Below the pieces are notes generated by a model. It was not told where the DNA came from and ran no database searches. It saw only the letters and a list, made by a program, of their open reading frames with translations. From Gimesia maris (lineage in GTDB: Bacteria > Planctomycetota > Planctomycetia > Planctomycetales > Planctomycetaceae), in the NCBI RefSeq assembly GCF_008298035.1, contig NZ_CP042910.1:2991001-3055000 (forward strand): DNA of 64,000 bases, in the 5' to 3' direction. The position numbers were made by a program, and so were the translations under genes. Shown here one piece after another: positions 10,077-50,873 of the stretch; positions within the stretch are counted from its first letter, which is position 1, and each line of letters starts with the position of its first letter.

Positions 10077-10170
10077 TTAGGCTATGTCCAGTGTTACTGT
10101 AACGTCTCCAAGGCTATTTGAGCCGCGTATAATATTTGGGGAGACGCAATGGTTAAATGATTCGACCTAG
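10077..10170 (+). repeat. Palindromic intergenic element, copy A
   Basis: This is the first of five related elements of about 95 bp. It starts TTAGGCTATGTCC and ends GATTCGACCTAG, with inner arms ACGTCTC and GAGACGC. It sits between rho and the TVP38 gene. Its last four bases, CTAG, contain the rho stop codon (10169-10167 read on the minus strand). It has a 2-base deletion in the right arm compared with the other copies, and a TATAAT in the loop that the others lack. Confidence 0.85.
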
Positions 10171-11798
10171 AGGATGGCGCGGATCTTTTCCAGAAATTCT
10201 TTATTGCTCGGGAATTTCTTGAGGGTACTGCTGAGTTGTTCCATGGCTTCGACCGGGTTCAGGGAAATCAGACTGCGACGGAGCATCGTGACACCTTCCA
10301 GTACTTCGGGGGCCAGGATTTTTTCCTCACGACGTGTTCCGGAGAGCGTGATATCAATGGCAGGAAAGATACGGCGGTCGGACAGTTCCCGACTGAGAAC
10401 CATTTCCATGTTGCCGGTTCCTTTGAATTCCTGAAAGATCACTTCATCCATGCGGCTGCCCGTATCGATCAAAGCGGTTCCCAGTACCGTCAGGGATCCA
10501 CCTTCATCAAATCGACGGGCGGTTCCGAACATCTTTTTGGGAATATCCATGGCTTTCACATCCAGACCACCACTCATGGTACGTCCGGTGTTTCCGACCC
10601 ATTTGTTAAAGGCACGTGCGGTACGGGTGATACTGTCCAGCAGAATGAAGGCGTCTTCGCCTGCTTCCGCCAGTCGCTTACCACGTTCAAAAATCAACTG
10701 ACTGGTGCGGACGTGACTTTCGACATCCCGGTCCATTGAAGAAGAAATGACTTCGCCTTTGATAGAACGTTGCATTTCCGTTACTTCTTCGGGACGCTCG
10801 TCGATCAGCAGCACCATCAGGCGGATTTCGGGGTGATTGGTACTGACTGCTTCTGCGATATCCTGCAGCAGCATTGTTTTACCGGTTCGAGGAGGAGCCA
10901 CTACCAGTGCACGTTGTCCTTTGCCGATCGGAGTGAGCATATCCATGATGCGCATTGTGATCGGCATGGGGCCTGTTTCCAGTTTGATCTGTTCAAACGG
11001 GTTGATAGGAGTCAGCTCATCGAACGATTTGATTTGCATGTATTCTTCGACAGTACGGCCATCAATCGTTTCGATCGATTTGAGTCGAGGACCCTGGCCA
11101 CGAGTACCAGGCCCTACTTCGCCGCGAATCAGAATTCCTTCACGAAGATTGTGTTTTTCGATCAGAGAACTGGAAACGAAAGCGTCGGAATCCTGGGCCT
11201 TGTAGTTGGATTTAGGGTCTCTGATAAAGCCGTAAGCTTTGGGATGTAGCTCGAGTACCCCTTCAATGGTTCCTGAAATATTTTCGTCGACAGGAGTATT
11301 GGAGCGAGGTCTGCGGTTTTGTGTTCTGTTGCCTCCCGCATTGCCGCCGGATCGCGATCGATTTCCGCCACGGTTGTTGGAGTTGGCACGTCCCCGGTTG
11401 CCTGCATTCTGATTTTGGCCACCCTGTCGTCCAGGTCCCTGGCTGGTAGTACCGTCTGATTTTCTTCTGCGTCTCCTCCGACGACGGTTGCCTCCGGATT
11501 TGTCGGATGACTGATCACCGTCTGAGCGGTTTGAGTTGTTATCGCCTGTGGATTCAGAAGAGGTATCTGACATGCTTGCGGGTTCTCTTTCAGGTTCTGC
11601 ATCGCTCTGGTGGGATTGAGTGTTTTCGAACATTTCAAGGTTTTCTTCGGCCTTGCGGCGGTACTCATCCTGCAGGGCGTCGGTCTCACTTTTTTCTAAA
11701 GTGTCTTCCGTCGCGCGTTCAACTTTTTTTCGCGGTTTTGTCGTTTTTCGACGTGCAGGTTTGGGTTTGTCTGAAGTTTCAGAACTTTTAGCGGCCAT
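10167..11798 (-). CDS. rho: Transcription termination factor Rho
   Basis: Rho is the hexameric RNA-dependent ATPase that ends transcription. The ATG at 11798 (M-A-A-K-S-S) is preferred over an upstream start at 11870, because the extra 24 residues are cysteine- and hydrophobic-rich and unlike Rho. The 543-residue protein has about 190 low-complexity residues: first acidic/Lys, then a run of eight arginines and G/N/R/Q repeats. A cold-shock-like RNA-binding domain follows (G-F-I-R-D-P; R-G-E-V-G-P-G), then the ATPase with Walker A P-P-R-T-G-K-T near residue 300, Walker B I-L-L-D-S-I-T-R, and the conserved G-T-G-N-M-E-M. The usual N-terminal helical SAP-like domain is not visible and seems replaced by the basic tract. 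The stop codon lies inside repeat A. Confidence 0.95.
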   Translation of the reverse strand: MAAKSSETSDKPKPARRKTTKPRKKVERATEDTLEKSETDALQDEYRRKAEENLEMFENTQSHQSDAEPEREPASMSDTSSESTGDNNSNRSDGDQSSDKSGGNRRRRRRRRKSDGTTSQGPGRQGGQNQNAGNRGRANSNNRGGNRSRSGGNAGGNRTQNRRPRSNTPVDENISGTIEGVLELHPKAYGFIRDPKSNYKAQDSDAFVSSSLIEKHNLREGILIRGEVGPGTRGQGPRLKSIETIDGRTVEEYMQIKSFDELTPINPFEQIKLETGPMPITMRIMDMLTPIGKGQRALVVAPPRTGKTMLLQDIAEAVSTNHPEIRLMVLLIDERPEEVTEMQRSIKGEVISSSMDRDVESHVRTSQLIFERGKRLAEAGEDAFILLDSITRTARAFNKWVGNTGRTMSGGLDVKAMDIPKKMFGTARRFDEGGSLTVLGTALIDTGSRMDEVIFQEFKGTGNMEMVLSRELSDRRIFPAIDITLSGTRREEKILAPEVLEGVTMLRRSLISLNPVEAMEQLSSTLKKFPSNKEFLEKIRAIL

Positions 11799-12944
11799 AC
11801 AGAAACACCAAATGATTATAAAAATAGTTACGAAATAATTAGAGACACAACTACAGCATGAACGGCTCATGAAGTGACAGACAAATGCTTCAAGACAGAA
11901 TCATTATCAGCAGAGAGCCTGCAATGATACTTGAATGCAGCTGGCATACTTCTGAACGTGTCGACTCTTCATCCAGCGGAAATCAGATCAAAGCCAGCTA
12001 ATGATACTGGCGAAATCCTGATCTCTTGAAGAAAGACTCACACAGTGGAATAACTCGCCCGTCTGCGGACTCGACCATCTTGGCCTGAATATTCCAACTC
12101 TTAGGACAATCGCTTTTTTAAACAGTAAAAAGGATTTGGCCCAGGCATTGAGAACAGAATGCTTTGACAAACTTGTTGACGAATGCCTCTTACAGGGTGA
12201 TCGTCTTGCCGATATCCTTTCAGGCAAAAAATATTGTGGTCAAAAACTGTTACTAGAATTCAATCGTTTCAATCAGGTTCCGTCAACCGATAAATGGTTG
12301 CTAATAAGGAACTTTTAAATGTTTTACTAACTCGACCCGGAATCAGGATTCACTCCGTTGTCATCGAATAAAGGCGACAAAACGACGAAAAGATTTCGGG
12401 GGCCTTCTGATGTCATTTCATCAAAACAGAAGACAGATAACCTTCAGAGGATAATGTTATTTAGCCAGTGAACTGGTCTGGTAGTTTTGCAACTGGTTCA
12501 GATACGTCAATATCTCTCAGCGCGAACATGAAAGAGCAATTACTTTCAAGAAACAGGCGACCGCCCCAATTTAATCGAGGGTGGCGCCGATGAAGACCAA
12601 GGCCCCGCCGGAAACGACTCACATACATAAAAAGCCAAATGGGTAATCAGTAATTTTTTATTCTGATTGGTGGGTTATTGATCTCAAAAAGCGGGGGAGA
12701 TCCTCATTGAAAAACGGCTTTCCTGAGATGTCTTTATCAGTAGTGTTTATCAAAACTATCTCATAGCGTCAATACTAATCGTATCGCCAGCTCGTTCTAC
12801 CGATATCTTAACTTATCCCTGAGCAAAGTCAATTCACTATCTTGTTTCTATCGGATGTTTTGTTCAGGAGCACTTTAATGACTTGTCAATAAACATGAAA
12901 TTTCCGGAATTTCATCAGTTTCCCGTATTCAATTCATTCAATTT
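11799..12944. other. Gene-poor region of 1.1 kb upstream of rho, with a possible decayed reading frame
   Basis: No gene here is convincing. The bases just upstream of the rho ATG contain TATAAT on the minus strand (11820-11815), a possible -10 box with a poor -35. On the plus strand, an open frame from 12022 to TAA 12318 (98 codons) has a protein-like composition, but it has only TTG-type starts and is preceded by an in-frame TGA at 12019. It may be a remnant. From 12320 to 12944 I see AT-rich sequence with no tRNA, no clear riboswitch and no recognisable repeat. A GC-rich patch at about 12565-12620 could hold RNA structure but matches nothing I know. Confidence 0.4.
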
Positions 12945-13793
12945 TCAGGGTTCGAGATCAGGCGGGAGCCCTGATGGATACGCTTGCTGTATGAAATACT
13001 GGATGCGTTCGATACGGTTTCCGGGATCGGGGTGCGTGCTGAAGATTTCAGGCTGCCTGCCGGGACCGGCAGAGCGTTTCAGAATATCCATGACTGCGAT
13101 CATGGCGTGAGGATCGTAGCCTGCCATGACCATCAGTTTGATACCCCAGCGATCCGACTCGAGTTCATCCTTTCTACCATATTTCATATTCACCATTGAG
13201 CCAATCATCGCCGCCAGGCGGGCGCTGCTGACATCTCCGCCGGCCACACCGGCCGCGCCGGCCAGACCTTGTGTGAGTTCCTGTTTTGCCATCTGTTGAG
13301 CACCATGCCGAGACAGGACGTGTCCAATTTCATGTCCCAGTACGCCAGCGAGTTGTCCTTCTGTCTCGAGTTGATTGTACAAGGCAGCCGTGATGAAGAT
13401 CTGCCCGCCGGGCAAGGCAAACGCGTTAACGACCTGATTGTCTTTCAGCAGGTGGAAATTGAACCGATAAGGGTTGTGTCGCCCCTCTTTTGCCAGCGCG
13501 GCATTGAAACTGTCAAGCAGCCGTCGTCCGACACGATCAACATACGCCTGGGCCTGTTGATCGGGGGGTTCTCCCTGATGCTGTTGCAGAATGGCGGGCA
13601 ACGCCTGCAGCCCCAGCGCGATTTCCTGCTGTTCTGTTAAAGCAACCCGCTGATTCTCCCCGGTGACTTCATTGACATCGGACTTCATCAGGTACGAAAC
13701 GTAACTGAACAGTGCGATGCCAACAGCGATGATGAGCCGCATCTTAAACGAGGAATTCCGTGAACCATGAGAGGTTCTGATATACCGTGTCAT
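12945..13793 (-). CDS. M48-family zinc metalloprotease
   Basis: The 282-residue protein starts with a short basic segment followed by one hydrophobic helix (about residues 18-37), so it is membrane-anchored or exported. The zinc site H-E-I-G-H is near residue 152, with the downstream Glu ligand in E-L-E-S-D-R about 60 residues later. The A-G-Y-D-P and S-T-H-P-D-P-x-x-R-I segments close the domain. This is the BepA/LoiP/Oma1-like M48 layout, associated with envelope protein quality control. It lies 41 bases downstream of the large ThuA-cytochrome gene on the same strand, so the two could share a transcript. Confidence 0.87.
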   Translation of the reverse strand: MTRYIRTSHGSRNSSFKMRLIIAVGIALFSYVSYLMKSDVNEVTGENQRVALTEQQEIALGLQALPAILQQHQGEPPDQQAQAYVDRVGRRLLDSFNAALAKEGRHNPYRFNFHLLKDNQVVNAFALPGGQIFITAALYNQLETEGQLAGVLGHEIGHVLSRHGAQQMAKQELTQGLAGAAGVAGGDVSSARLAAMIGSMVNMKYGRKDELESDRWGIKLMVMAGYDPHAMIAVMDILKRSAGPGRQPEIFSTHPDPGNRIERIQYFIQQAYPSGLPPDLEP

Positions 13794-13834
13794 CTTTTTA
13801 ATTATCCTGAAATTTTTCGATCAGAACAGCCGTC

Positions 13835-16800
13835 TCAGTTGTTTCTGAAGGAGCGAGGTTGTTCATCCAGACTCTGAATGTAACGCCAGATGGCCTGGAA
13901 CTGTAGATCCGCATTCCCATCCAGTATGTTGGTAATTTTAGTTGTTTTTCCGTTCGCGGAAAGACGAGGCATTTTGGTGGATATATCAAATCGTGGTGGA
14001 TTGAGGACAAACCGCCGATAGTAGTCATCATCGAGCCGTTCCCGGATGTGTACGAAATTTATCCCAGGTGCGATTTTTGTTTTATCATCACCGGTTGGCA
14101 AGTTGTCTCCAACACCATGACACTGCCGACAGTCGAGAGCGGTTTTCGAAGTCAGTTGATGGCCCAGTTGAATTTGTGTTTCTGACTGAGAAAGTTCGGT
14201 TTTTGAAGACTCATTTGTTGAGTGGATGGACTTTCCATGCTCGGCCGCCATTCCTCGTGCCAGCAGCGCCGCATGTGCGGGAAAGGCGGGCATCCGGGAT
14301 TTCAACCAGGGCCGGGGACGCCAGGAAAGCTGTCCACCTATAAAAGTTTCTGACCAGTGAGGTTTCAGTTTTTCACCCGCCCATGTCAGGCTTGGCAAAG
14401 GTTCCGGAGGTAATCCCGACTCTCCTTCTTCGACAACGATAATTGCACGAGGACTGGATGTGGAATCTCGGGTGTGACAGGCGGAACAACTCAACTGGTG
14501 GAACCATCGCTCAGCAGTTTCCGAATCGCTCCGCCGGAACAGGGAGTCTGATCCCGTTTTTAAGACCGCCTGGATAGCAGCGTATTGTTCCGGATGAAAT
14601 GTGAAGTCGGGAACAGAAGCAGGCCTCTTTTCTGTTTCGGCAAGGCATCCTGCGGAAAGTGATTGTGCTTTGATGGGAACTGGCTGGAGTCCCGTTGCAG
14701 ACAGTTGTGATTCCTGAAGTGAACTATGACATTGAACACATCCCAGCGTTTCATACAACGTCTTACCCCGGTTGGCGGAACCGGCAGGTGGGATCATGGC
14801 ATTCTGGATTTTCCCTTTGGAATTCTCGATCAGATACACTGCGAGTCCGACTGCTTCCTCAGTTGATAATTTGAAATCAGGCATGCGACTCCAACGGTGG
14901 TGTTCGTGTGGTGATTTCAGGAAGCGTATCAGTTGAGAAGCGGTGAATTTACGTTTGATGAATGCGAGTGAGTGCCGTTGATATTCATCTGGTTCCTCGG
15001 CAACTGAAAAGTGATGGCAGTTGATACAGCCCAGTACTTCGTAGGACTTCGTCCCAGCGGTTAGAAACTTTCCGGAGTTGTCTTCCGAACTGAAGTCTGG
15101 TGTTTTGCTGTTATCTGAATCAGGTTTCCGGGCCTGAGACACAAACCAGGCAGTTAAATCGGCTGCTTTCTGGATGGTCTGCTTCTCAGCAGGGTCTCCC
15201 AGTAACGCGGGCATCCTGGAATGTGACCGTAAATTTTGTGGATTCAACAACCAGTGAAATAACCAGCGTTTCGTCACGCGCGTTCCGATATTCTTCAAAT
15301 CTGGTGCAGTTCGTGATAATTCGGGCATCGCGGCACTCTCTGAAAGGAACTGGTCGGCCTGCAGTCGGGCGAGTGTAAATGAGGTGTCTTCGCCTGGCAG
15401 TGTATGGCAGGCGATGCATTTAAACTCTGCGAGCAGTTCACGTCCGTAGCGGACCTGCTGTCGTTCCAGCAGTTGACTGTCATTCCCTGTGTGGCTCAAG
15501 AGTTGAGGTGGAATCGGTTCGGCCGCAAAATCCTCGCCTTTCCAGAGCAACCGTAATCGGGCCCGTCCATCAGGCTGGCTCTGGTAGTCTAACTGTAACT
15601 GGTTGTACCCTTTTTTCAAATGAACGGTCACAGGCTCAGACTGTTTGAAGTCAGAGTCTGTGACCTGAATGATCTGTTTTTGATTCACTTTTAAGCGGGC
15701 AGTTCCCGAACCTTCCAGGCTCAGCTCGTAATCACCTGCAATGGGGACGCGCAGATAGCCTTCTGCAGAAGCGGAAAAACGACCTGGCTTCAGAAAGGGG
15801 GTAACTGGTTCTGCAGGACCGACAGATAATGCCAGCAGACGACTGCTGCGCGCATCAGTCACGAGGGAACCGGCTGACAGATTCTGTTTGAAACGCCAGA
15901 GAATTCCCGGTTTCAGCTGTTGCACCTGAGTTGGCGAGAGCAGCTCATTTTTCTGACGACGTGCCAGAATCGAGTCCTCCATTTTGCGCGAAGAAACCGA
16001 ATTGATCGTATGATAGTAGGTCTGTTTTAATAATTCGCCAGACTGACTGTTCAACTGCCAGGTGATTCCCATCTGCATCACAGGAATCACACGCGGCAAT
16101 TCGAGGAAGACCGTGCGCTGATCAGGCAGCAACGTGGCAGAGATGACTTCAACTTCATCACGACCTTCGGTCTGGGGAGCGGAGACACGATATTCTGGTG
16201 AACCGTAGTTTTGTGACCAGAGATAATTCCATTGTTCAATGGCGTAATTATCGGGGTTCTCAGCTCTTTGACGATCCAATGGGTTCGTAAACGTCAAAGC
16301 AATTCCGTTCTGCATGGTTTTGACGGCGACAGGCAGGTGAACCGGTTTTCCAGTGTAGCGCACACGTTGCAGGCAACCGTCGCGGACCGCATTCGTGACC
16401 CAGCCTCTTAAACCACTGACGTAAAGCTGCCCATCTTCGGGTCTGAACCGCCCCCGCATGATTCCTGATTCAAACTCCAGGGGTAACGTGAGCGTGCCCC
16501 CCTGCGATTGTCCGGCGATGACTTCCCGCAGTGTCAGCAGCAATTTACTTTGACCGTAAGACAGGTGCAGCAGCTGACCTTCCAGCGGGCCCCAGTCCGG
16601 ACTGGTGACCCAGACCTGTCCGCCGCTGGAGTTATCCTGCAGTCGGGGGATCCAGCATAACGGGGGATCATATCCCAACGGTCTGTCCGGCGTGATCTGT
16701 GGACCACCAAAGCCGTAGTAGCCTCCCTGTTTTACTTCTGTGACGTTGGAGGCGGGAGTCCAGTTCCCTTCCTGGGGGGATGCGGTGATAATATTGCCAG

Positions 16801-19800
16801 GGCCCATTCCCATGCCATTGGGGTTGCGAAAGCCGGATGCGATTTGATTCAATCGTTTGCCATTCCGGCTGATTTGCATGACACCCTGCTGCGCATGCAT
16901 GAAAAAAAAGTTCCCGAAAGAATCGGTTTCGAGACAGGTCACATAATCATGGCCACCGACTGATGTCGGGATCTGGTTGTTGAAGCATTCATAGAAGTCC
17001 GCTTCGCCATCCAGATTCTGATCGTGCAGGATCGTGATCTGATCGCGGCCCAGTACATGAATCTTGTTATTCACCACTTTCAATCCTAATGGCTGAAACA
17101 GTCCGGTAGCAAAACGCTTCCACTTCAATTCGGTTAAATCAGCATCAACGCCGCTGACCAGCCAGACATCGCCGTGCACGGTTGAAACCGCCATGTCTCC
17201 ATTTTCCAGGAAGTCATGACCACTTATGAAGAAGAGCGCGTGGTACGGGTTCTTATGCGGAATGGTGAGCGTGTCGACTACATAAGGAGCATTCAGCTGG
17301 CTGAGGACTCCTTCGGTTGTGATTGTTTCGGTCCAGCGAGGTGGTCCCGGGATCAGTTGGGTCTGCAGTGTGTCTGGTATTGAGAGATTGGGAGCGTTGT
17401 AGGCCGTGTCTGGATTGCCGTCCGGACTGATCTGGTAATAGATGAGAAATCGCTGTGTAGTTTTGCGGGGAGGGATCACAAAACTGGCGACCCCCTGCTC
17501 TTTGTTCGGGCTGATGTGGGAATGGATTTCTTCTCCGCCGACGCAGCCGATCATAACCGGACGGTTCTGCTTCGTCATGATCATTCGATGGGGATGATTT
17601 TCTACAGATTGCACCTCGCTGGCGGCAGCAACGTTTAGATTAAGTTCTTCCTGTCCAGGGCCGATTTCAAAGGCACGTGTAAAATATGACTTTTCTGGAG
17701 AAGTCTCATACCAGGGCGTTTCAAATACTGTTGTTTCTCCAATACGGTATTCCAGGGTGACCCGATTTCGATTCACATGAGAACCAACGAACTGACAGGG
17801 TTGTTCCCAGCCAGGCCCCTCTGCTGTCGAAAAATGAATCTGTCCGACCGGTGATGGTGCGCGGATCAGACCAAAGCGTTCCGGGGAAGGTTTGAGAAAT
17901 CCGTTAGACCAGATGCCCCTCACTTTGCCGTGAGCGGTGTCATAGCAGATTGTGGCTGCCTGGTTATTACCGACACGGATCGAGAGCCCTTTTTTAACGG
18001 GACCAGTTGGTAAAGGCACGGTACAGGCCAGCCAGGTGCCCATCTCCGTTTGCTGCCAGCGATTATCACTGGTTTCTTCAACCGGCTGATCGAACCCGAC
18101 CGCATCTTTGCCCCAGTGATCGCGTGCTTTTTCAGTAGTAGCTGTTTCAACGCGAACTGATTTCCCTGGTTCAGATCGATCCGAGATTTTTATTTTATCA
18201 GGCAAGTCAAATGAGAGCAGGAACAGAGTATTGTCATCCTGTTTCAAGGGCGCTGTGGGAACGATTGTAAAATCGCGTGTCCCTTTTGAAATACGAAAAT
18301 CATCCAGCAGGCCATCACAACCAAGCCTGTTTTCGACGAGCCGTCCGAAAGCGATGTTTCGCTGTGCTGGTTCAGTCGATTTTCGTTTCGGGAGTTTCGA
18401 ATCGAGCGCCTGTTTGCCGTCGACATACAGACGCAAACGCGAGTCTTCCAGAATCATGGCGACATAATGCCATTCGTCGTCACAGATATTGATGCCCGTC
18501 TTGAATTCTCCCCCCTGTCCGGGCAGATACACGCTGAAAAAACCGCTGCCGGCATAAGAGTACATCTCCCAATGTGCAGCCGCGCTCTTGGGGTCACAGG
18601 CGAGCAGGATGTTGAAAGCTGATTGACTGTGTAGTTTAACCCAGCCTTCTGCTGTCAATGGGCGGTGGTCTAAAAACCCGGCAGGTGTTTTGGTTAGAAC
18701 AGATCCTGCATTTGCATTGAGGGCCTTTCCCCATTTTCCCGGAACGAGTGTGTTTTGTTGCGCGGGCTTTCTCTTTGGCGCTGGTGGAGCTTCCATTTCG
18801 TGAATGGGGCGCTGGGCGGCCCAGGCGGTGGCGCGGCGCAGGATTTCAGTGGGGGGAAAGGAGTCGTAGGTTTTTTCGCTGTGCCCGAGCAGCGTCTGAA
18901 AAATGCGTCCTTTCCCGTAGTGGTAGGTCCAGGCCAGCGGTTCATTGTTTTTTGTTACTCTGGATCTGGCAGTAATCAGAGGCTCAACCGGTTCTGTGCC
19001 ATCCTGACGAAAGTAGAGTTCATCGGTCACCGGAAAATCATCCAGGTTCCGTGTAAGGGGATGCGTGTCGTCGGTAATCTTTACGGTGAAGTTTCCGAAG
19101 GCGTCGTGTCCGCTTTTCTGCTCCCCCTTGCCATGGTGATTCCAGACTCGCCGGACAATCTTACGATACTCGGGCCAGTCGGACGCTCCTGCCTGGGGTA
19201 GGGAGAAATGAAAGGCACCATTGGCGAAATGGATTAAGATCAGCCCCCCGCCCTGTTGCAGATAATTCATAAATGCGTTGCGCGAGGTTTTACTTAATGG
19301 GGTTTTATCATGCCAGTTGGTATAGTTCTGCACGATGACCTGATAGTTCTGCAAATTCTTTTTCGACAGATCTTCGATGTCATTCGTGATATCCACTTTG
19401 ATGCGCGGATCTCGTTCCAGCTGTTGCTTAATGACTGGGGTGGTTTTTTTCCAGTTATGCCAGGCGTGTGCTTCATTGCCGGCGAACATGAGAACGCGAA
19501 TGGGCTGTGTGTCGACTAACGCGGGTTCAGTTCCCTGCATGCCGGCCAGAGCAGTAGTGATTTCCTGATGCGTGTAATAGCGGGCTTCTACGCCGGATTG
19601 GGGAACGTGAATGCCTGCAGTCCAGGCAATGGCATTGAGAATGAATTTTCGAAAGGCCGCATTTTGCCAGTTGTCATAATAATGTCCGCAGGTTGTCCCA
19701 AAGCCGCGCCCCCCCTGGCTGCGTTCTTTGGCCCAGGCGACAATGTTTCCGTTTTCAGGGCGTCCTTTGAGTTCAGAGACTTCCAATAATGTAGTCAGCC

Positions 19801-26820: not shown

Positions 26821-26829
26821 CAGCTCCGT

Positions 26830-27805: not shown

Positions 27806-27901
27806 CCAGACTGTGTCCAGTTTTACTGTAGCGTCTCCAGGGCCGTTTGGGCCGAGTTTAACAGGTTGAGAGACGCGATGGTTAAATGTGATTCGCTCTC
27901 G
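27806..27901 (+). repeat. Palindromic intergenic element, copy B
   Basis: This is a 96-bp member of the five-copy family. It starts CCAGACTGTGTCC, has inner arms GCGTCTC and GAGACGC, and ends GATTCGCTCTCG. Both outer TA dinucleotides seen in other copies are mutated here (CCAG, TCTCG), suggesting an older insertion. It lies 23 bases upstream of the thioredoxin-YHS start codon, so it either carries or sits inside that gene's leader or promoter. The remaining gap to pabA (27902-28119) shows no gene. Confidence 0.85.
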
Positions 27902-37953: not shown

Positions 37954-37967
37954 GATTGAAAGCTGCT

Positions 37968-39706: not shown

Positions 39707-39938
39707 GAGTGCTCATCCCTGCCAGGTGTTTTCGATAAAAAATTTAATGCGAAGCGACGCATTTCTGCCAGTAGTCTTTGATTGTTTTCTTCTATTTTAC
39801 GTTTTCCGGATTAAAAACATACAGACAAAATATTGTTTTGAGTCATGACTATCATATTCCCAGCTGACTTTTTACTATTTTGCAGACAGATCGAATCATA
39901 AATCCCGAAAACCGTACAGGAGCAGGAGTTTGCCCTTT

Positions 39939-41045
39939 ATGTATCTGGCTGCGGAGCCGCTCGAATTTTTGCGAATCTTTATTGGACTGGATGCGCCTGC
40001 GTCAATTCTCTATTGCAGTTTATTAATTCTGCTGGGAATGCTCAGTATTACCAAAGGAGGGGATCTGTTTACGGACAGCTCTGTTGAGATCGCCAGGCTG
40101 ACACGAATTCCCCCAGTGATTATCGGGGCAACGATCGTCAGTATGTCGACCACGTTTCCGGAGCTGATGGTGTCGGTCACGGGTACTCTGGCAGGCAAAG
40201 GTGATCTGGCAGTGGGGAACGCGTTGGGATCCTGTTTGTGTAACATCGGTCTGATCATTGGTTCCTGTGCCTTATTGAAAGGTTATCTCTCCCGAAAAAG
40301 AAAAACCGAGAGCGGAATCCCGGTTTCACGGCTCACCATTGTAGGGCCTGGCTTTTTTATGCTGTTTTCCGGAGTTCTCGTCTGGGTCTTCAGCCTGTTC
40401 TCAACAGGTGGTGCGGTCACACAGACGGGTGCACCAGCTGAATTTGCGATTGCGCGCTGGCAGGCAGTGATTTTGTTATGTGTTCTGGCTGCTTATATCC
40501 TGTTTTCGCTGAGAGTAGCGATGGCTTCACGTCATGATTTCGGTGAAGAACAGGAATTACCGCCCCTGATTGAAAACCAGATCGCTTATTTTTTCAAGCT
40601 CGCATTGATGTTTTTTTGTGGTGCCTGTCTGGTAGTGCTGGGAAGCCGACTGCTGGTCACGAACGCCGTAGTGGTAGCCCGGTATTTTGAGGTTTCTGAG
40701 TTATTGATTGGTCTGACAATTCTGGCCATTGGTACTTCGCTGCCTGAATATACAATTTCCGTTCTGTCGATTATCAAAGGTCACGGTGCCCTGGGAACCG
40801 GGAATATCATCGGGGCCAACGTACTGAATATCAATATGGTTATCGCGATTTGTGCCCTGATTCACCCCTTACCCATTCAGCGGCAGACCGTCATCCTGGA
40901 TGGTCCTGTTGTGATTCTGCTGATTGTGGCAATGCTGGGGCTGGCGTGGAGGAAAAAGCGGATCTCTACTGCCAGTGGGGCTGTACTGCTTGCGATTTAT
41001 GTCGGGTATCTACTGCTGGCAACATTCTGCTTCGCCAGCAGCTAG
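39939..41045 (+). CDS. Sodium/calcium exchanger family membrane protein
   Basis: The ATG at 39939 is preferred over a TTG at 39930, because the AGGAG site ends at 39928, ten bases before the ATG but only one before the TTG. The 368-residue protein has about ten hydrophobic helices and two inverted alpha-repeats: S-T-T-F-P-E-L with G-N-A-L-G-S, and G-T-S-L-P-E-Y with G-N-I-I-G-A-N-V. These are the ion-binding motifs of the CaCA superfamily (YrbG-like). It should exchange Ca2+ for Na+ or H+ at the cytoplasmic membrane. AGTCATGACT, a perfect palindrome, lies about 90 bases upstream (39841-39850). The stop TAG lies within the first bases of repeat C. Confidence 0.88.
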   Translation: MYLAAEPLEFLRIFIGLDAPASILYCSLLILLGMLSITKGGDLFTDSSVEIARLTRIPPVIIGATIVSMSTTFPELMVSVTGTLAGKGDLAVGNALGSCLCNIGLIIGSCALLKGYLSRKRKTESGIPVSRLTIVGPGFFMLFSGVLVWVFSLFSTGGAVTQTGAPAEFAIARWQAVILLCVLAAYILFSLRVAMASRHDFGEEQELPPLIENQIAYFFKLALMFFCGACLVVLGSRLLVTNAVVVARYFEVSELLIGLTILAIGTSLPEYTISVLSIIKGHGALGTGNIIGANVLNINMVIAICALIHPLPIQRQTVILDGPVVILLIVAMLGLAWRKKRISTASGAVLLAIYVGYLLLATFCFASS

Positions 41046-41138: not shown

Positions 41139-41414
41139 CGGCTTTTCCGGCGTGGAAATGCATGTTTGCTGAAATTGACCGCATACTCGTTGGGCTGCCA
41201 GATCTTGATCCGCTGTCAATTCCGGATTGACGGACCACTGGTCTTTTGGCTTCTATTGAGTATAGGCTTGATTCACAAACCAAAATAAGAATATGATGTC
41301 TTGCTTAGCTTTGTTTCTTTTGGAGAGTTCACTATAGACCGATCAGGTCATCCTCTTGAGCTCACTGGATGTTCTCGTTTATCAGTTTTTCCCAGAATCA
41401 GTAATGTTCCCGAT

Positions 41415-42404: not shown

Positions 42405-42426
42405 TGTTCAGACTGATCAATCCGAC

Positions 42427-43368: not shown

Positions 43369-43437
43369 GTTACATTCAAAATCGTCTGGTGGTCATAGTG
43401 GAGCGAATTCACGTAAGGAGATTTTACCGTGTTCGCA

Positions 43438-43668
43438 TCAGGCCGTTTTACGCAGGCGACCTGATTGTTCCTCGAGTTCTGCTTCCCGCCGAAGTTTACG
43501 AACTTTCTGGCTCATGACAGCCGCGTCATACCAGGTAAAACTCAAGTCTGTGTCAGCCGCATATTGCCCGAGTGTCTGCAGCATCTGTGAAGAACTTGCA
43601 TCATCGTAGAGAAACACATAACGTTCGGAATCTTTAACTAACGCAACGACATTCATTTGTTGTTTCAC
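43438..43668 (-). CDS. Small protein of unknown function
   Basis: I do not recognise this 76-residue protein. A GTG start at 43668 is preferred, because an AAGGA site lies 8 bases upstream of it; the ATG four codons later and an upstream start at 43734 fit less well. The N-terminal half is beta-rich with Y-V-F-L-Y-D-D, a middle segment reads D-L-S-F-T-W-Y-D-A, and the C-terminal third is a charged helix (K-V-R-K-L-R-R-E-A-E-L). No signal or membrane segment is seen. It lies between xer and the lipoprotein gene on the same strand. The good ribosome site supports it as a real gene. Confidence 0.6.
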   Translation of the reverse strand: MKQQMNVVALVKDSERYVFLYDDASSSQMLQTLGQYAADTDLSFTWYDAAVMSQKVRKLRREAELEEQSGRLRKTA

Positions 43669-43773
43669 TGTAGCAGTCCTTTGTTTATCGTCAGAGCACT
43701 GGAATCTAAGACTGGATAGGTTGGGAGTGCTCATAAAACCGCAATAGTAAATATCGGCTTCTGAGCGGTGGGA

Positions 43774-44967
43774 TTATCGATATTTTCTTACTTTGAAGAT
43801 GATCTGACGCTCAGCTTGTCCGCCGTGCAGTGTTAACATCTCTAGAATCATTAAATGTGATGTAAACCGTATAAAGTCCTCACTCCGGTGCAGATAGGCT
43901 TCCCAGCCACCACTGCGGCGGTCTCCACTGACTTCGAGATAATCACGTAAGTGTGCTACCAGAGCCGCGTCCGCACCATCGAAGAGACGTGTATACGACA
44001 TGAAAGGCTGGCGGGGATCATACGTTCCGACCTGAGTGGGAGGACAGTAGTCTTCTAACTGCTTCACAACCGAAGTATTATTTTGAGGCGGGAGGGGAGA
44101 AACGGAGAGTTTCGGTTTCGGAGCAGCGAGAGTTTCCTGCCCTGCCCCGACTTTTGTTTGTGAATCAGCAGGCAAAGGAGCGTGCAGTGGGGCGTTGAGG
44201 GACTGTGAACCCTGATTGGCTTGTGCAGCAGCTTGAATGATTCCGGTTTGATTCTGTGTGTAAGGCCAGGAGTCAAGCGAATCCGTTGACTGGCCTCGGA
44301 TCACCGTATTCACACCGGCAGGTGGTTCAGAGAGATCAACTGGACAGCCTTCAGGGCAGTCCATCATACCCGTTTTATGGAGCTCTTTTTCTGCTTTTCG
44401 GATTTCTTTTTTCTCAATATGACCAGCATGCCTGAGTTCTTTATTCAGTTGATGCTCTTCCTGTCTCATTTCCCGGGCTGCGACGCGATCCATTTTGAAC
44501 ATCTTGTTCCACATTGATGTTTCTGCGTGCCGCTCTTCTACCATGAGAGGCATTCCCGGGATGAACTCCTGAGAATGGGGAGAATACCAGGAGACCTGCA
44601 TCCCAATGCGGGGCGGATAATAGGGTGAGTAATCTGTAATTGCACCGATGACAACCGCATCCACGTTCAGAATTTTGGCCAGTTTCAGCACATCATCCGG
44701 ATTGTTCATCTGCAGTTGATTTTCCACCATCGCGACTTCAGCGACTCCCAGAGGTAATACCTGAAATCCTGGTACTTTCTGGAGTTCTGAGTAATAGGCG
44801 AGCGCAAAGCGGCGGCCGTCGACATCCGGTTCCTGACTCAGATTAAAAAATGGGACCAGGGCCACAGTTTTAAGTCTGGGATTGGGATTGGTGACCGAAG
44901 TGTGCATAATTACACACCCAGACAGGCTGCCAAAGCAGATCAGCATTAATAATATGCGTGTCAGCAC
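43774..44967 (-). CDS. Predicted lipoprotein of unknown function
   Basis: The 397-residue protein has a lipoprotein signal peptide with lipobox L-S-G-C (Cys18). Residues 30-125 (V-A-L-V-P-F-F-N-L-S-Q-E; V-D-A-V-V-I-G-A-I-T-D-Y) look like the TolB-N/CsgG-related or GNA1162-like fold of envelope lipoproteins. The middle (about 155-200) is a charged helix rich in K/E/H. A Pro/Gln-rich linker follows, and a conserved-looking C-terminal domain (about 310-397). It is probably anchored in a membrane facing the periplasm. The exact role is unknown. Confidence 0.7.
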   Translation of the reverse strand: MLTRILLMLICFGSLSGCVIMHTSVTNPNPRLKTVALVPFFNLSQEPDVDGRRFALAYYSELQKVPGFQVLPLGVAEVAMVENQLQMNNPDDVLKLAKILNVDAVVIGAITDYSPYYPPRIGMQVSWYSPHSQEFIPGMPLMVEERHAETSMWNKMFKMDRVAAREMRQEEHQLNKELRHAGHIEKKEIRKAEKELHKTGMMDCPEGCPVDLSEPPAGVNTVIRGQSTDSLDSWPYTQNQTGIIQAAAQANQGSQSLNAPLHAPLPADSQTKVGAGQETLAAPKPKLSVSPLPPQNNTSVVKQLEDYCPPTQVGTYDPRQPFMSYTRLFDGADAALVAHLRDYLEVSGDRRSGGWEAYLHRSEDFIRFTSHLMILEMLTLHGGQAERQIIFKVRKYR

Positions 44968-45105
44968 CAGAAAGTTCCCGTGGGATGAAGATAGAAATAA
45001 TCGATATCAACGTTATCGGCATAACCGGTAGAGTAACTTCAATAAGAAATGTTTAAGTAGATCCCCTATATTTACTTTTACAGTAAATTCCCTGTTTTCA
45101 GCTGG

Positions 45106-45201
45106 TTAGGCTGTGTCCCGTTTTGCTGTAGCGTTTCCAAAACCATTTGGAGCGAGTCAAAGAGATCGACTGATGCCATGGTTAACTGTGATGCGTGCTA
45201 G
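45106..45201 (+). repeat. Palindromic intergenic element, copy D
   Basis: This 96-bp member begins TTAGGCTGTGTCC and ends GATGCGTGCTAG, so both outer TA dinucleotides are intact. The inner arm pair GCGTT / GATGC keeps pairing through G-U-type differences. It lies in the divergent region between the lipoprotein and dus genes, with a small AT-rich hairpin (45070-45088) beside it. It ends 66 bases before the dus start and does not touch a coding region. Confidence 0.82.
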
Positions 45202-45267
45202 AACCTGAGAGAATCTCAAAGGGGGCATTTGCAGACTCTGGCTTGACTGATAAAATGCGTTGAGTTA

Positions 45268-46392
45268 ATGATTTGCAGCCCTCTTCATAATTTGATGAAT
45301 GAATCGATGAAACCAGCTTGTCCGCCGAAGCCCGATCACCGTCCGCCTGTTTGTTACGGTGCACTGCAGCTGGAATCACGCTATCTGCTGTCTCCGCTGG
45401 CGGGGTATACGAATTTACCATTTCGGCGAATTGTGCGCGAACTGGGAGGCGTCGGGCTGGCGACGACTGATCTGGTGAATGCGCGGGGACTGCTGGAAGG
45501 GAGTGAGAAAACACTCCAGCTCACCCAGACCTGCCCTGAAGATTCCCCGTTTGCTGTCCAGATTTTCGGAAGCGAACCTCAGCAGATGAAGGATGCGGCG
45601 CAGTTACTTGAGTCGCGCGGCGTCCATTCGATTGATATCAACATGGGCTGTCCGGTGAATCGGATTGTGAAAGGGGGCGCCGGGGCCAGCATGATGTGTC
45701 GGCCGAGCGATACAGTTTCACTGGTGCAAACGGTGGTCGAAGCAGTCAAGATCCCGGTGTCGGTGAAGATGCGACTGGGCTGGGATGACAGTGAGCTGTC
45801 TGCCCCGTTTTTCTCTCGCGAATTTGAAAAAGTGGGTGTGGTCGCGGTCGCCATTCATGGCCGGACCCGGGAACAGGGATTTCGGGGTGTTGTGAATCAC
45901 GATGGGATTCGCCGTGTGGTGGAAGCCGTCGATTCGATACCGGTGATCGGGAATGGCGATGTCACGAATGTTGCTGAAGCCGACTTCATGTTGAAAACAA
46001 CTGGATGCGCGGGGGTTTCGATCGGCCGTGGTGCGCTGGCGAATCCGTGGATTTTTCGACAACTGGTACAGTGGGAGCAGACCGGGACATATGATCCACC
46101 CGGGAATTTTGATGATCGCCTGGAACTGCTGCTGCGACAGTTTCGTTACCTGCTGGAGATGACCACTGAGAAACGGGCTATTTCCATGTTCCGGAAAATG
46201 GGACACTGGTATTTGAAGTCGATGCGCGTGAAACCCGCGATGCGACATGAATTTCAACTGGCATCAAATCTGGATGAGTTTGGTCAGGCGGTGCGAAAAA
46301 TCGCCGCAGAGGGGCCTGCAGTCGGTTCTCGCAGCGGTGTTCTGCCGGAGATGCATATTCCCGTGCCCGGCGGACCGGTGGAACGCTGGTAA
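45268..46392 (+). CDS. tRNA-dihydrouridine synthase (DusB-like)
   Basis: The enzyme reduces uridine to dihydrouridine in tRNA with FMN and NADPH. The TIM-barrel is clear: S-P-L-A-G-Y-T-N-L-P-F-R near the start, D-I-N-M-G-C-P-V with the catalytic Cys, K-G-G-A-G-A-S-M, V-K-M-R-L-G-W, H-G-R-T-R-E-Q, and G-N-G-D-V. The C-terminal helical RNA-binding part follows (M-R-K-M-style helix with F-R-K-M-G-H-W-Y). The start is uncertain: ATGs at 45268, 45298 and 45307 are in frame, and none has a strong ribosome site. The first gives 374 residues. It lies 18 bases from the convergent hlyC-like gene. Confidence 0.9.
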   Translation: MICSPLHNLMNESMKPACPPKPDHRPPVCYGALQLESRYLLSPLAGYTNLPFRRIVRELGGVGLATTDLVNARGLLEGSEKTLQLTQTCPEDSPFAVQIFGSEPQQMKDAAQLLESRGVHSIDINMGCPVNRIVKGGAGASMMCRPSDTVSLVQTVVEAVKIPVSVKMRLGWDDSELSAPFFSREFEKVGVVAVAIHGRTREQGFRGVVNHDGIRRVVEAVDSIPVIGNGDVTNVAEADFMLKTTGCAGVSIGRGALANPWIFRQLVQWEQTGTYDPPGNFDDRLELLLRQFRYLLEMTTEKRAISMFRKMGHWYLKSMRVKPAMRHEFQLASNLDEFGQAVRKIAAEGPAVGSRSGVLPEMHIPVPGGPVERW

Positions 46393-46410
46393 GCAGCAAT
46401 CGGACCCTTA

Positions 46411-47721
46411 TCAGTTGTCCGTGTCGTACTCTTCCACCAGTGAAGTGTCCAGTTCAATGCGGAGCTTATTGATTCTGCGTTCGTCGGACTCAAGCACTTC
46501 GATTCTTAACTGCTGCCAAGTCAGTGTTTCACCAGGTTGAGGGACTTTCCCGATCTGGGTAATTACAAAACCGCCTATCGTGTCGAAATCTTTACCTTCC
46601 GGCAGATTGTAATTGTATTGCTCATTCAGGTCATCAATGTGTACCCGGGCATCGACTTCAAGTGTATTTTGGCCGGTTTCAAAAATCATCTGTTCTTCTT
46701 CTTCGTCGAATTCATCGACAATGTCGCCGACAATTTCTTCCAGCACGTCTTCCATTGTGACCAGTCCGGCGACCCCTCCGTATTCATCAATCACAATCGC
46801 CATGTGGACATGCTCTTTCTGCATGGTCTCCAGCAGTGAGTCGATCCCCGTGGTTTCGGGAATATAAAAAGGAGAAAACATCAGTTTCTGGATGGTTAAC
46901 TCTTCGGGAGATTCGGAATTCTGATTCTCTTTCGAGAAATGCTTGAGCAGTTCCCGCGCATAGAGGATTCCCACGATGTCATCTGTGGATTCACCAATGA
47001 CGGGAATACGGGAGTGACCGACATCGATGAACTTCAGCAGGGCTTCATCCAGCGTTGCATTCACAGAGATGTATTCCATATCCATACGCTGGGTCATGAT
47101 GGCGCCGACATCTTCATCCTGAAGTTCCATCACGCGCTGGATCATTTTACCGGCTTCCGATTCGAGGATCCCTCCGCGGGCCCCTTCTTCCACGACAGAC
47201 AGAATCTCTTCACTGATATTGGCTTCCCGACCGTTTTTGTTGTCTTCTTTGCCAGCCAGTCGATGGGAGAACTCATCAATTTTCCAACAGAGCCAGATCA
47301 CGGGGCTCAGGAAGACCGGCAGCAGTTTAATGACAGGCCAGAACAGCTGCAGGAAGCGTTCTCCGGCAATCCGCGAGATTGTCCAGGGAATGACCATCAA
47401 CAGCAGAATCCCCGTGAGCAGGATCAACAGGATCTGAATGGAAAACTGTATGGTAACTGCGGGAGTACTGAAGTTTCGCGGGACTTCCAGATATTTATGA
47501 GTGAAAATAATCGAGATCAGAATCACGCCCGTCAGCCAGAACAGGTCGGCGGCCAGCAACATGGTGGGGTGAGAGCGTAATATTTCGCTGAATCGATCGG
47601 GGACCTCAGCTTCGTTACACAGTGTTTCCAGGCGACTTCGAGAGAAATCGCGCAATGAAAATCCTGACAGGGCGGCTGTCAGAGTCAGGAGTAACAGAAC
47701 AGAAAGAGTCAGCGGGATCAT
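46411..47721 (-). CDS. Hemolysin C/CorC-family membrane protein with CBS pair
   Basis: The 436-residue protein has a DUF21-like N-terminal membrane domain with about four helices (residues 3-20, 55-75, 92-112, 128-146). A CBS pair follows (about 205-330; R-I-P-V-I-G...V-G-I-L, V-I-D-E-Y-G-G-V-A-G-L-V-T-M-E-D-V-L), then a C-terminal CorC/HlyC domain. Relatives act in Mg2+/Co2+ homeostasis or export. It is the last gene of the phoH, pgpH-like, ybeY unit and lies 113 bases after ybeY; PhoH-YbeY-CorC neighbourhoods are widely conserved. Confidence 0.87.
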   Translation of the reverse strand: MIPLTLSVLLLLTLTAALSGFSLRDFSRSRLETLCNEAEVPDRFSEILRSHPTMLLAADLFWLTGVILISIIFTHKYLEVPRNFSTPAVTIQFSIQILLILLTGILLLMVIPWTISRIAGERFLQLFWPVIKLLPVFLSPVIWLCWKIDEFSHRLAGKEDNKNGREANISEEILSVVEEGARGGILESEAGKMIQRVMELQDEDVGAIMTQRMDMEYISVNATLDEALLKFIDVGHSRIPVIGESTDDIVGILYARELLKHFSKENQNSESPEELTIQKLMFSPFYIPETTGIDSLLETMQKEHVHMAIVIDEYGGVAGLVTMEDVLEEIVGDIVDEFDEEEEQMIFETGQNTLEVDARVHIDDLNEQYNYNLPEGKDFDTIGGFVITQIGKVPQPGETLTWQQLRIEVLESDERRINKLRIELDTSLVEEYDTDN

Positions 47722-47834
47722 ATGTCTTGTAAACGTTCAGATAAGATGTTTCGAAACTGATTCTGATTCACAGACAGAATCGCGTTATAGTTATACTGGT
47801 AATTATTCCAGGTGTCATTCTCAATCATCTGTTT

Positions 47835-48332
47835 TTACTCTTCGCGTCTGGGGATTGAGATCTGCCAGTGATCGAAGATCTGTTGCTCACGTTGCCGCAT
47901 GATATGCAGTTCTTCTTCCGTAAGGTCATCATAACCGCATAAATGCAGCAACCCGTGGATCACATACAGCAGAAGTTCCTGTTCCGCGGGCCATTGGTAT
48001 TCTGCAGACATCGCAACCGCCATTTCCGCGGAGACAATGACTTCACCTTCAATCTGCCTGCCTGCCCCACGAAATTCCACCTGGTTCGTATCCATTGCGG
48101 TATCGCAGTCCAGCAGAAAACTCAGAACATCAGTATCGTAATCATGTTCCAGGTATTGCTGATTCAACTGGCGAATGGTGGGATTGTCGACGATTGCCAG
48201 GCTGATTTCCGCCTGGTTTACCTGTTCGGACTGCAGCAGAAAACTGATCGCTGTTTTCAGCTGTGTTTCGTCGATGGCAAGGTGCGTTTGTGAGTTTTGA
48301 ATCTCGATCTGAAACTGGTCTATTGTATTCAT
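47835..48332 (-). CDS. ybeY: Endoribonuclease / rRNA maturation factor YbeY
   Basis: The 165-residue protein has the YbeY pattern: D-V-L-S-F in the middle, G-E-V-I-V-S, and the metal motif H-G-L-L-H-L-C-G-Y-D-D. In most bacteria this motif ends G-x-D-H, with three His zinc ligands. Here the third ligand position is Asp, so the zinc site may be His-His-Asp. YbeY takes part in 16S rRNA 3' processing and ribosome quality control. The gene starts 18 bases after the pgpH-like stop and is the third gene of the phoH unit. Confidence 0.9.
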   Translation of the reverse strand: MNTIDQFQIEIQNSQTHLAIDETQLKTAISFLLQSEQVNQAEISLAIVDNPTIRQLNQQYLEHDYDTDVLSFLLDCDTAMDTNQVEFRGAGRQIEGEVIVSAEMAVAMSAEYQWPAEQELLLYVIHGLLHLCGYDDLTEEELHIMRQREQQIFDHWQISIPRREE

Positions 48333-48350
48333 TCCGTTTTCAATCGGGGA

Positions 48351-50726
48351 TTAAGCGGAGCGCTCTTCCGGGTATTTAATACGTCCGTGGTAAATACCGA
48401 TCAGGGATTTTACCAGCGATTCTTCCACAACATTGATTTCACTCAAAGTGAGTGAGCATTCATTAAACTGCCCGTCAAGCAGTCGTTTCATCACAAGAGA
48501 GTGTACCAGAGATTTGATACGTTTGGGCGTCGGATCACTCAGTGTGCGGCTGGCACTTTCGACCGCGTCGGAAAGCATCATCACTCCCGCTTCCCGGGTC
48601 TGCGGTTTGGGACCGGGATACCGGAAAGAAGACTCTTCGGCATCGGTTTTGTGATCCGGGCTGAGATCCGCCTGCTTTTCTGCTTCGCGGAAGAAATATT
48701 CCACCAGCGTAGTCCCGTGATGCTGTTCAATAAAATCGATAATCGGCTGAGGCAGGTTGTGCTGACGGGCCAGATCCACGCCATCTTTGACATGGCCGAT
48801 GATAATCAGGGTACTCATCGCCGGAGCGAGGTTGTCGTGCAGACTCCCACTGCCTTGTGCCATATTTTCAATGAAGTACTGAGGCTTCAGCATTTTTCCG
48901 ATATCATGATAATAGGCGGCAACGCGTACCAGCAGTCCGTTGGCGCCAATTTTGTCGGCAGCGGCTTCTCCGATTGTGGCCACAGAAATGGAATGGTTAT
49001 AGGTCCCCGGAGCACGACGCACCAGTTCCTGCAGCAGCGGATGTGAGACATTGCTCATTTCCAGAAGACTGATGTCGGTAACCACTCCGAATAGAGATTC
49101 AATAAAAGGCAGACTGCCCGCGACCAGATATCCAGCAGCCAGGCACCACCCTGCCCCTTGAAGACTTTCCCAGACGATCTGCTGATCAAAGAAACCGTTT
49201 GAGAGTTCCTGACTGTTGATCAGGTTGATCCCCCAGTAGACCAGGAAGTAAGTCAGTCCCATCCCGAAGCCGAGTTTGATCAGCGTGGATCGGGAAGAGA
49301 CGTTGCCCAGGGATGTCACCGCGACGGCAGAGACACTCATCAGCACGACGAAATGTCCCAGTGCGGCACCTGTCGACAGGCAAATCACCAGTGACAAAGA
49401 CAAGGCGGTCAGGATGGCCATCATCTGGTCGTAGACAATCGCAAACACCATGACCGTCACAACCAGCGGCAGCACTTCCGCGCGCCAGGGGTCATAGGAA
49501 AGCAGACGAGCCAGGAAAATGGTCAGAATGATCACGCTGAGATAGATACTTAACCGACTGACTGTTCGGGCGACCGCTTTTTTATTCCGCAGCAGATGAT
49601 ATCCATTCAGGACCGCCAGGACGACCAGCATGAGAAAGATGATGGTCACGCGAATGACCCGCTCATATGTCGGTACGGCTTTTTCCCTGGCTTCGTATTC
49701 CGCACGCAGTAAAGCAAGTTGATTGTCGTCGATTAACTGACCCGGCTCCACCAGAATCGTGCCACGCTGGAAGGTGTCAAAAATTTCTTCCACCTGATTT
49801 CTTGCCTGGGTCCGTTCCTTGAGCGTTCGCTGGGCATCGTAAGTCAGAGTGGTGGGCGCCTGGAAATAAATCCAGTGCGTAAGCACTGCCTTCAGCGGGG
49901 CCAGGCGTTGGAAGGCCTTGTTATCGAACAGTCGGCCGACGCCCCCGCTTGCTGAGAGTTGATCAGGCAGACGAATATCAAAAGTGGCGACTTTGGTGAC
50001 TGTGGTAACTTTGCTATGGTCACTTTTTTTACCATCTTTTTTATCATCTTTATCAGAGCTTTCGTTGATAATGGCAATCTCATCACCAACTCTGATCTGG
50101 TTTTGGATCAGATCATTTTCGTTCACAATTCCATAAGTAGCCAGATCTGTAATCAGTTTAGTAAAGTCATTGATCAGGTCTTCAATTTTTTTAGTATCAT
50201 TGGAATCGGGGCTGCTGACCAGCGATTTCAGTTCGGCAAAGGTCTGTTCTGGTTCTTCTGGAAACTGGCCTACAAACTGTTCCAGTCGGCGGGACGGAGT
50301 GAGCCCCAGTTCCGCCCGGGTGTCAGCATTCAGCTCATCCAGCGATTTGGCATTGGCAATCCTAACCAGATCTTCCTTCAGCAATCCTGGCAACTTGTCG
50401 ATCAGGTCCGGCTGATTTTTGAAGTAATAGGGAACTTCTGTCTCTTTCTGGGTCCGTTGCCGGTCTGTTTCAATCGGATTGGAGACTTTGAACGTGGAAT
50501 TGGCCACAATCCCATGCTCGGAAAACATGCCCAGTCGATAGGGGAACGGGGCTTTCCAGCTTTCTACTGCCACCATCAGAATCAGAATCGTCAACAGGCA
50601 GACACTCAAGCGTGAGAGCGTCCCCCGGTTACTCAGTAATTCGCGCAATCTCGAACTCAATTTGGAAGAATCGCGCAAACTGGCAGCAAGTGCAGTTCGG
50701 GATTTCTTTGAGCCAAAAAAAGCCAT
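48351..50726 (-). CDS. 7TM-HD phosphodiesterase, PgpH-like (c-di-AMP hydrolase family)
   Basis: The 791-residue protein has an N-terminal helix (about 40-58). A large extracytoplasmic 7TM-HDED domain follows (about 60-355; a lysine/aspartate-rich insert near 225-235), then seven membrane helices (about 360-520). The cytoplasmic HD domain carries H-S-I-S-V-A, Y-Y-H-D-I-G-K and later metal ligands (I-I-I-G-H-V, E-Q-H-H-G-T). PgpH in Firmicutes degrades the second messenger c-di-AMP, and its gene sits beside phoH and ybeY just as here. The c-di-AMP role is inferred from family and context. The C-terminal helix ends R-S-A, 18 bases before ybeY. Confidence 0.88.
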   Translation of the reverse strand: MAFFGSKKSRTALAASLRDSSKLSSRLRELLSNRGTLSRLSVCLLTILILMVAVESWKAPFPYRLGMFSEHGIVANSTFKVSNPIETDRQRTQKETEVPYYFKNQPDLIDKLPGLLKEDLVRIANAKSLDELNADTRAELGLTPSRRLEQFVGQFPEEPEQTFAELKSLVSSPDSNDTKKIEDLINDFTKLITDLATYGIVNENDLIQNQIRVGDEIAIINESSDKDDKKDGKKSDHSKVTTVTKVATFDIRLPDQLSASGGVGRLFDNKAFQRLAPLKAVLTHWIYFQAPTTLTYDAQRTLKERTQARNQVEEIFDTFQRGTILVEPGQLIDDNQLALLRAEYEAREKAVPTYERVIRVTIIFLMLVVLAVLNGYHLLRNKKAVARTVSRLSIYLSVIILTIFLARLLSYDPWRAEVLPLVVTVMVFAIVYDQMMAILTALSLSLVICLSTGAALGHFVVLMSVSAVAVTSLGNVSSRSTLIKLGFGMGLTYFLVYWGINLINSQELSNGFFDQQIVWESLQGAGWCLAAGYLVAGSLPFIESLFGVVTDISLLEMSNVSHPLLQELVRRAPGTYNHSISVATIGEAAADKIGANGLLVRVAAYYHDIGKMLKPQYFIENMAQGSGSLHDNLAPAMSTLIIIGHVKDGVDLARQHNLPQPIIDFIEQHHGTTLVEYFFREAEKQADLSPDHKTDAEESSFRYPGPKPQTREAGVMMLSDAVESASRTLSDPTPKRIKSLVHSLVMKRLLDGQFNECSLTLSEINVVEESLVKSLIGIYHGRIKYPEERSA

Positions 50727-50777
50727 GAAATTAACCTGAGATGATCTGGATGAATAACGAGGGTAAGCGGATGAGAA

Positions 50778-50873
50778 TCAGACTGTGTCCAGTTTTCTTT
50801 TAGCGTCTCCAGGAACGTTTGGACCGAGTCGAATCGCTTGAGAGACGCTATGGTTAAATGTGATACGGTCTAG
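50778..50873 (+). repeat. Palindromic intergenic element, copy E
   Basis: This 96-bp member begins TCAGACTGTGTCC and ends GATACGGTCTAG. The two 31-base arms match at about two thirds of positions when one is reverse complemented, and several differences are G-U-type. The inner arms are TAGCGTCTC and GAGACGCTA. It is inserted inside the phoH operon, between phoH and the pgpH-like gene. Its terminal CTAG holds the phoH stop codon (50872-50870 on the minus strand). Confidence 0.88.

Follow-up and report, generated by a model that had tools for sequence, protein, structure and literature searches.

A 64-kb stretch of Gimesia maris DNA, referred to below as the window, carries several near-palindromic elements of about 95 bp, and the question that it raises is what these elements are and how they reached their positions. 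In our view it is very probable that they belong to a family of MITEs of the IS630 type that was mobilised in trans.

Copies in the window, the genome and the genus

The five copies (A to E) that a sequence-only reading had described are all present where it placed them. They align over 97 columns with a mean column identity of 82%, and a covariance model (CM) built from them scores the same five at 91–109 bits, as is to be expected by construction. A search of the window with this model also returned a sixth copy, which the sequence-only reading did not contain. The six copies are as follows:

1467–1562, plus strand: sixth copy, decayed; CM score 53.5 bits; the CTA of its right end (1559–1561) is the stop of the minus-strand ORF 1559–2920
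10077–10170, plus strand: copy A; 91.1 bits; its right-end CTAG gives the stop (10167–10169) of the minus-strand ORF 10167–11870
27806–27901, plus strand: copy B, intergenic; 108.6 bits
41042–41138, plus strand: copy C; its left-end CTAG gives the stop (41043–41045) of the plus-strand ORF 39930–41045
45106–45201, plus strand: copy D, intergenic; CM match
50778–50873, plus strand: copy E; its right-end CTAG gives the stop (50870–50872) of the minus-strand ORF 50870–51835

An element end is thus a stop codon in four of the six copies. The tetranucleotide CTAG occurs nine times in the whole window, where about 249 occurrences would be expected from base composition.

The family, which had been described with five members, extends throughout the genome. 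In the G. maris genome (7,816,689 bp, one contig), the covariance model yielded at least 150 whole-model matches of 48–109 bits among 948 candidates, and a search with just the 22-nt left end, allowing up to three mismatches, gave 133 occurrences, as against two for a reversed control. We extracted 149 of the 150 matches with their flanks for column analysis, and built an HMM from those whose length is exactly 96 nt (117 copies; the 32 of other lengths were left out). At E ≤ 1e-3, this HMM found 181 distinct copies in 683 kb of fetched G. maris DNA. Sixteen of the 181 lie in places that had not been chosen for holding a copy, and extrapolation from these 16 suggests a total of very roughly 350, the flanks of known copies being a non-random sample.

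Across the 149 copies, conservation sets in sharply at YTAG, and the element ends with CTAG followed by two A/T-rich positions. Consensus position 1 is C in 45 and T in 58 of the 117 copies of 96 nt, while position 93 is C in 100 and T in 15; because the two compositions differ, the duplicated sequence is TA, and a 4-bp duplication of CTAG is ruled out. From this column pattern, the mobile unit would be the 90 bp (5'-GACTG...GCTC-3') between the duplicated TA, and the target preference is Y-TA-G-W-W. The terminal inverted repeats are extensive, with consensus arms that pair at 28 of 33 positions, G-U pairs counted. Short, present in many copies, bounded by terminal inverted repeats and a TA duplication, and sharing its ends with an autonomous element (see below), the element is a MITE, that is, a non-autonomous DNA transposon. 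The G. maris copies are old and decaying; the 117 copies have a mean pairwise identity of 76% (highest 95%), and their identity to the consensus ranges from 74 to 97%.

At E ≤ 1e-19, the model matched 8 of 25 genomes, all of them in the same genus and G. maris included (16 of the 25 belong to that genus). A class-wide draw of 79 genomes, searched at E ≤ 1e-6 with stricter filters, also gave eight, seven from the same genus (again with G. maris) and one, G087, from another genus of the family. This genome has 28 matches, the best at 54 bits; the four copies examined are full length with TA at both ends, and their consensus shares 65 of 96 positions with that of G. maris. In the sister species G014, 45 copies were found in the fetched loci, of which the 39 full, ungapped ones average 93% identity, an upper view as these loci come from the highest scorers. 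The G014 consensus equals the G. maris consensus at all 96 positions, and three identical 96-nt copies sit at different G014 loci, which we count as evidence of mobility. The G014 copies are a young set.

Filled sites, empty sites and the hairpin

With the 13.5-kb part of the window that contains copies C, D and E as query, we searched 17 genomes of the genus (one of them G. maris itself) and compared the orthologous stretches. At the site of copy E, G014 is empty and has one TA, and G006 and G011 are filled, with the element between two TA; in G. maris itself, the left TA has mutated to CA. Copy C is present in G. maris and G014 and missing from G006, which reads CTAG at this site, the stop of the upstream gene, with a diverged right flank adjoining it. 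The site of copy D is empty in G014, G006 and G011, which read TTCG or TTTG and not TTAG, and here the TA must have arisen in the G. maris lineage before insertion. Empty orthologous sites, proposed by the sequence-only reading as a check, thus exist in relatives; as for the single TA, it is clean at E, G006 has it at C, and it is missing at D.

Tandem arrays carry the same signature. In G014, copies arranged head to tail repeat with a period of exactly 92 bp, adjacent copies having one CTAG with its TA in common; this is the period expected if the element inserts into the TA at its own end. The TA duplication is therefore observed directly at copy E, in the tandem period and in the column composition. 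The left flank of copy E groups G. maris with G014 (support 100/99), though G014 is empty, and the right flank does not resolve the grouping; a precise loss of copy E in G014 is possible.

These empty sites in close relatives mean that the element is dispensable at the places concerned, and they speak against an explanation in which the repeats are functional RNAs or regulatory hairpins whose fold is kept by selection in each copy. The sequence-only reading had proposed that the fold is either under selection or was copied as a unit, and the matched change that it had noted in copy C is real. The two strands also differ in folding: the plus strand of the consensus reaches −34.4 kcal/mol compared with −22.1 kcal/mol for the minus strand, the 33 opposed positions of the plus strand comprise 21 Watson-Crick pairs, 7 G-U pairs, 1 A-C and 4 others, and of the 117 copies, 103 have their better fold on the plus strand. 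Yet the same 117 copies show no compensatory excess, with 33 matched-double-change cells against 30.8 ± 4.8 in shuffles (361 of 1000 shuffles reach this count) and 3370 of 3978 paired cells against 3364.7 ± 7.5. The mean fold energy of the real copies is only slightly better than that of column-shuffled copies (−28.4 versus −27.5), and none of the 45 strongest covarying column pairs by mutual information falls on the main helix (positions summing to 97). Rfam returned no match at the gathering score for the window or for loci L254 and L184, and copies between tandem genes show no orientation bias relative to these genes (44 same, 57 opposite). The hairpin shape is a feature of the master sequence that the copies inherit; no maintenance in the individual copies was measurable. 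Copying as a unit fits these data, selection on the fold of individual copies was not detected, and we consider a family of selected RNA hairpins quite improbable.

All six window copies lie on the plus strand, in keeping with the single orientation reported by the sequence-only reading, but the rule does not hold genome-wide, where 97 copies are on the plus and 78 on the minus strand (175 copies with more than 60 positions matched). The impression of a uniform orientation probably comes from the bin at 3.0–3.5 Mb, where 13 of 14 copies are on the plus strand. A runs test on strand gave p = 0.026, and the agreement between neighbours was not significant in five distance ranges, on which ground a strand rule was rejected; strand clustering is at most weak.

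A probable IS630-family partner

According to the explanation that we favour, an IS630-family (Tc1/mariner superfamily) transposase would have moved the 90-bp unit in trans, with duplication of TA. Matches to DDE_3 were found in 10 of the 17 genus genomes, and the G. maris genome gave none at E ≤ 0.01. Among 30 fetched DDE_3 loci, the transposase is bracketed by MITE-like ends in two, which come from two sister species (G025 and G001), and a single such end is present in three others (L265, L266, L280). The two elements are:

G025:C1:2345921–2346945: IS630-family element, 1025 bp, MITE-like ends on both sides
G001:C1:5029822–5030846: IS630-family element, 1025 bp, MITE-like ends on both sides

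They are 98% identical and apparently intact. Each comprises a 111-aa HTH frame and a DDE frame that overlap at a run of eight A, an arrangement suggesting that the two frames are joined by frameshifting. The DDE frame scores above the cut-offs of the IS630 family (NF033545, E = 2.4e-42; DDE_3, E = 1.8e-33), and the HTH frame lies above the cut-off of HTH_Tnp_IS630 and below the whole-protein cut-off of NF033545.

The right end of the MITE matches the ends of these elements at 24–25 of 27 positions. The left end matches them at 16–18 of 27, and a deletion derivative in G. maris at 19 of 27. In a shuffle test over the 23 positions beyond TAGA, evaluated against the best of the compared IS ends (G025 and the G. 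maris derivative), none of 20,000 shuffles matched as well as the right end, and 2 of 20,000 matched as well as the left end. The end match is thus a direct observation; with only 16–18 positions shared at the left, simple internal deletion of this IS element would not yield the MITE.

A DNA search with the IS630 element returned matches in 7 of the 17 genomes at E ≤ 1e-20. In G. maris, the derivative (2649093–2649609) joins positions 1–443 of the element to positions 948–1025, is 91–92% identical and keeps both ends, and two end fragments are present as well; the DDE_3 and DNA searches found no intact partner there. The sequence-only reading had ascribed the ends to an IS630/Tc1-mariner-type transposase. 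They do match those of an IS630-family transposon; apparently intact copies of it were found in sister species and not in the same genome. The partner would be of the 1025-bp type seen in G025 and G001, of which only the deletion derivative and the end fragments were found in G. maris. G011 has truncated copies of the IS630 element, including a 241-bp remnant beside another insertion with a DDE_Tnp_1 match, and in two loci of Gimesia sp. SAT87 (L351 and L353), a transposase segment of 90% identity accompanies a related end that differs at 3 of 20 positions.

For the young G014 set, no intact partner was found either, the search at E ≤ 1e-20 returning only a 188-bp IS remnant. Three other DDE_3 matches in this genome have no MITE-like ends nearby, and one of these genes could be the recent mobiliser. 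Solitary element ends were considered as signs of a full-length partner and rejected in both genomes. All 20 right ends fetched from G014 outside the listed CM matches are MITEs, one of them partial, and 13 of 16 left-end loci fetched from G. maris outside the 150 are decayed MITEs (model match at E ≤ 1, the weakest at 17 bits). The remaining three left-end loci (L162, L168, L175) have no model match at that place, and the sequence continues into other DNA.

Two other kinds of transposase were weighed as the mobiliser. One is a DDE_Tnp_1 transposase, which we take to be IS5-like and which also inserts at CTAG: at two G014 loci (L203, 1981–3220, and L216, 950–2130), an IS of about 930 bp sits exactly at the CTAG of MITE ends. 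However, both loci had been fetched for their MITEs, the copy of this IS in L259 has no MITE in the flanks examined, and its ends (GAGGTGGTCCGAAAAC) differ from the MITE ends, while the IS630 ends match at 24–25 of 27. We regard this assignment as highly improbable. Still less probability, close to none, attaches to REP/REPIN elements moved by a RAYT (Y1 tyrosine transposase). Such elements are likewise palindromic, intergenic and of high copy number, and Y1_Tnp matches exist in G. maris (five) and G014 (four), but the size of the Gimesia element, its TA duplication and its match to IS630 ends are all at odds with them. Eight of the nine Y1_Tnp loci are without a copy at E ≤ 0.01, and the ninth has a partial copy about 500 bp away that does not flank the gene on both sides. 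The CGTC/GTAG REPs (PMC3733652) were set aside on size and TA duplication.

Gene ends, stop codons and related systems

The gene context was analysed with genes from a simple codon-based caller, which may overlook genes that a copy has interrupted. Of 170 near-full copies, 101 lie in tandem gaps, 38 in convergent and 25 in divergent gaps, 2 inside called genes and 4 in places that could not be resolved. Gap use departs from intergenic length by type (p = 0.0003, with gap lengths that include the elements), convergent gaps being over-used and divergent gaps under-used. Where a gene 3' end faces a copy, it lies within −6 to +1 nt of the element in 49 of 177 cases (21 at the left end, 28 at the right). 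In 46 of the 164 intergenic copies, a gene 3' end (46 in total) is located at −3 or −4, so that the element end forms the stop codon. YTAGWW sites outside elements are found at stops in 14 of 229 cases, the other 215 being elsewhere in intergenic DNA, and the odds of placement at a stop codon are 6.0-fold over this target supply (p = 3.5e-9). TAG accounts for 45 of the 54 stops that lie inside an element or up to 4 nt from one, compared with 56 of 453 elsewhere.

This coincidence of element ends and stops is observed directly, and the excess probably reflects purifying selection. The unit has G as its first and C as its last base, each next to the TA, so that its insertion into a TAA or TAG stop rebuilds TAG from either side; the 46 copies counted above occupy just this position. 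In two cases, relatives without the copy already had the stop, namely at copy C (TAG, in G006) and at copy E (TAA, in G014, minus strand); at other copies, the element end may have truncated a gene instead. The 683 kb of fetched G. maris DNA contain 216 CTAG, where one per 256 would give about 2667, of which 102 are outside the elements and 114 are inside one or no more than 4 nt away; this sample is enriched in elements. One may speculate that the element has a safe-landing device made up of its G...C ends, its TA duplication and its preference for YTAG, by which stops are a favoured harbour in a CTAG-poor genome because TAG is rebuilt and the protein is left unchanged, and that the 96-nt master persists unchanged in separate species and re-amplifies when an IS630 partner passes. 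We put this forward as a tentative idea that is on balance rather doubtful.

The closest known system is RUP of Streptococcus pneumoniae (PMC2229807), an element of 107 bp with 108 copies and IS630-Spn1 as its partner. Both families are about 100 bp long and intergenic, number about 100 copies or more, target TA, and have terminal repeats matching those of an IS630 element. They differ in host, in the Gimesia arms pairing over most of the element, in the Gimesia intact partner being found only in sister species, and perhaps in the many Gimesia copies that form stop codons, the comparison being one of descriptions. The TA duplication and the DDE transposase are shared with IS630/ISY100 of the Tc1/mariner superfamily (PMC2170065), and the reference list of that paper includes ‘Preferential transposition of an IS630-associated composite transposon to TA in the 5'-CTAG-3' sequence’. 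IS630/ISY100, however, is an autonomous element, whereas the 96-nt MITE has no transposase gene. ERIC and Correia/NEMIS (PMC2229807 and PMC10969869) are likewise small repeats with TA at their ends that fold as RNA; no selection on the fold was seen in Gimesia, and the separation from them relies on their published descriptions and on the Rfam search without matches.

In the open-licence PMC literature on Gimesia transposons, transposases and inverted repeats and on Planctomycetes MITEs, the element occurs in no title or abstract opening among the matches listed. We read the family as a new one among the MITEs of the RUP type, probably dependent on IS630, with a well-matching partner and a marked habit of forming stop codons. 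This indicates that the parasite-of-a-parasite relationship of RUP and IS630 operates in the planctomycete genus Gimesia. Here, filled and empty sites, an apparently intact partner in sister species, the broken partner in G. maris itself and the young burst of copies in G014 are linked in one place, and the loss of the partner as against the persistence of the MITE can be tested directly across the genus. Many genes have a stop codon formed by a copy, and a considerable fraction of the scarce CTAG sites lies in copies, which matters for annotation and for the interpretation of TAG usage in these genomes.

Two minor observations concern the copies themselves. The inner CCATTTGG (element positions 38–45) is exact in 33 of 117 G. 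maris copies, in 2 of 12 copies of G004 and in all 4 of the diverged copies of G087 that were examined (L401–L404). Several neighbouring G. maris copies are 1.8–2.4 kb apart (for example, 1833, 1947, 1954, 1960, 2035, 2056 and 2144 bp), a spacing that may correspond to single genes between two insertions.
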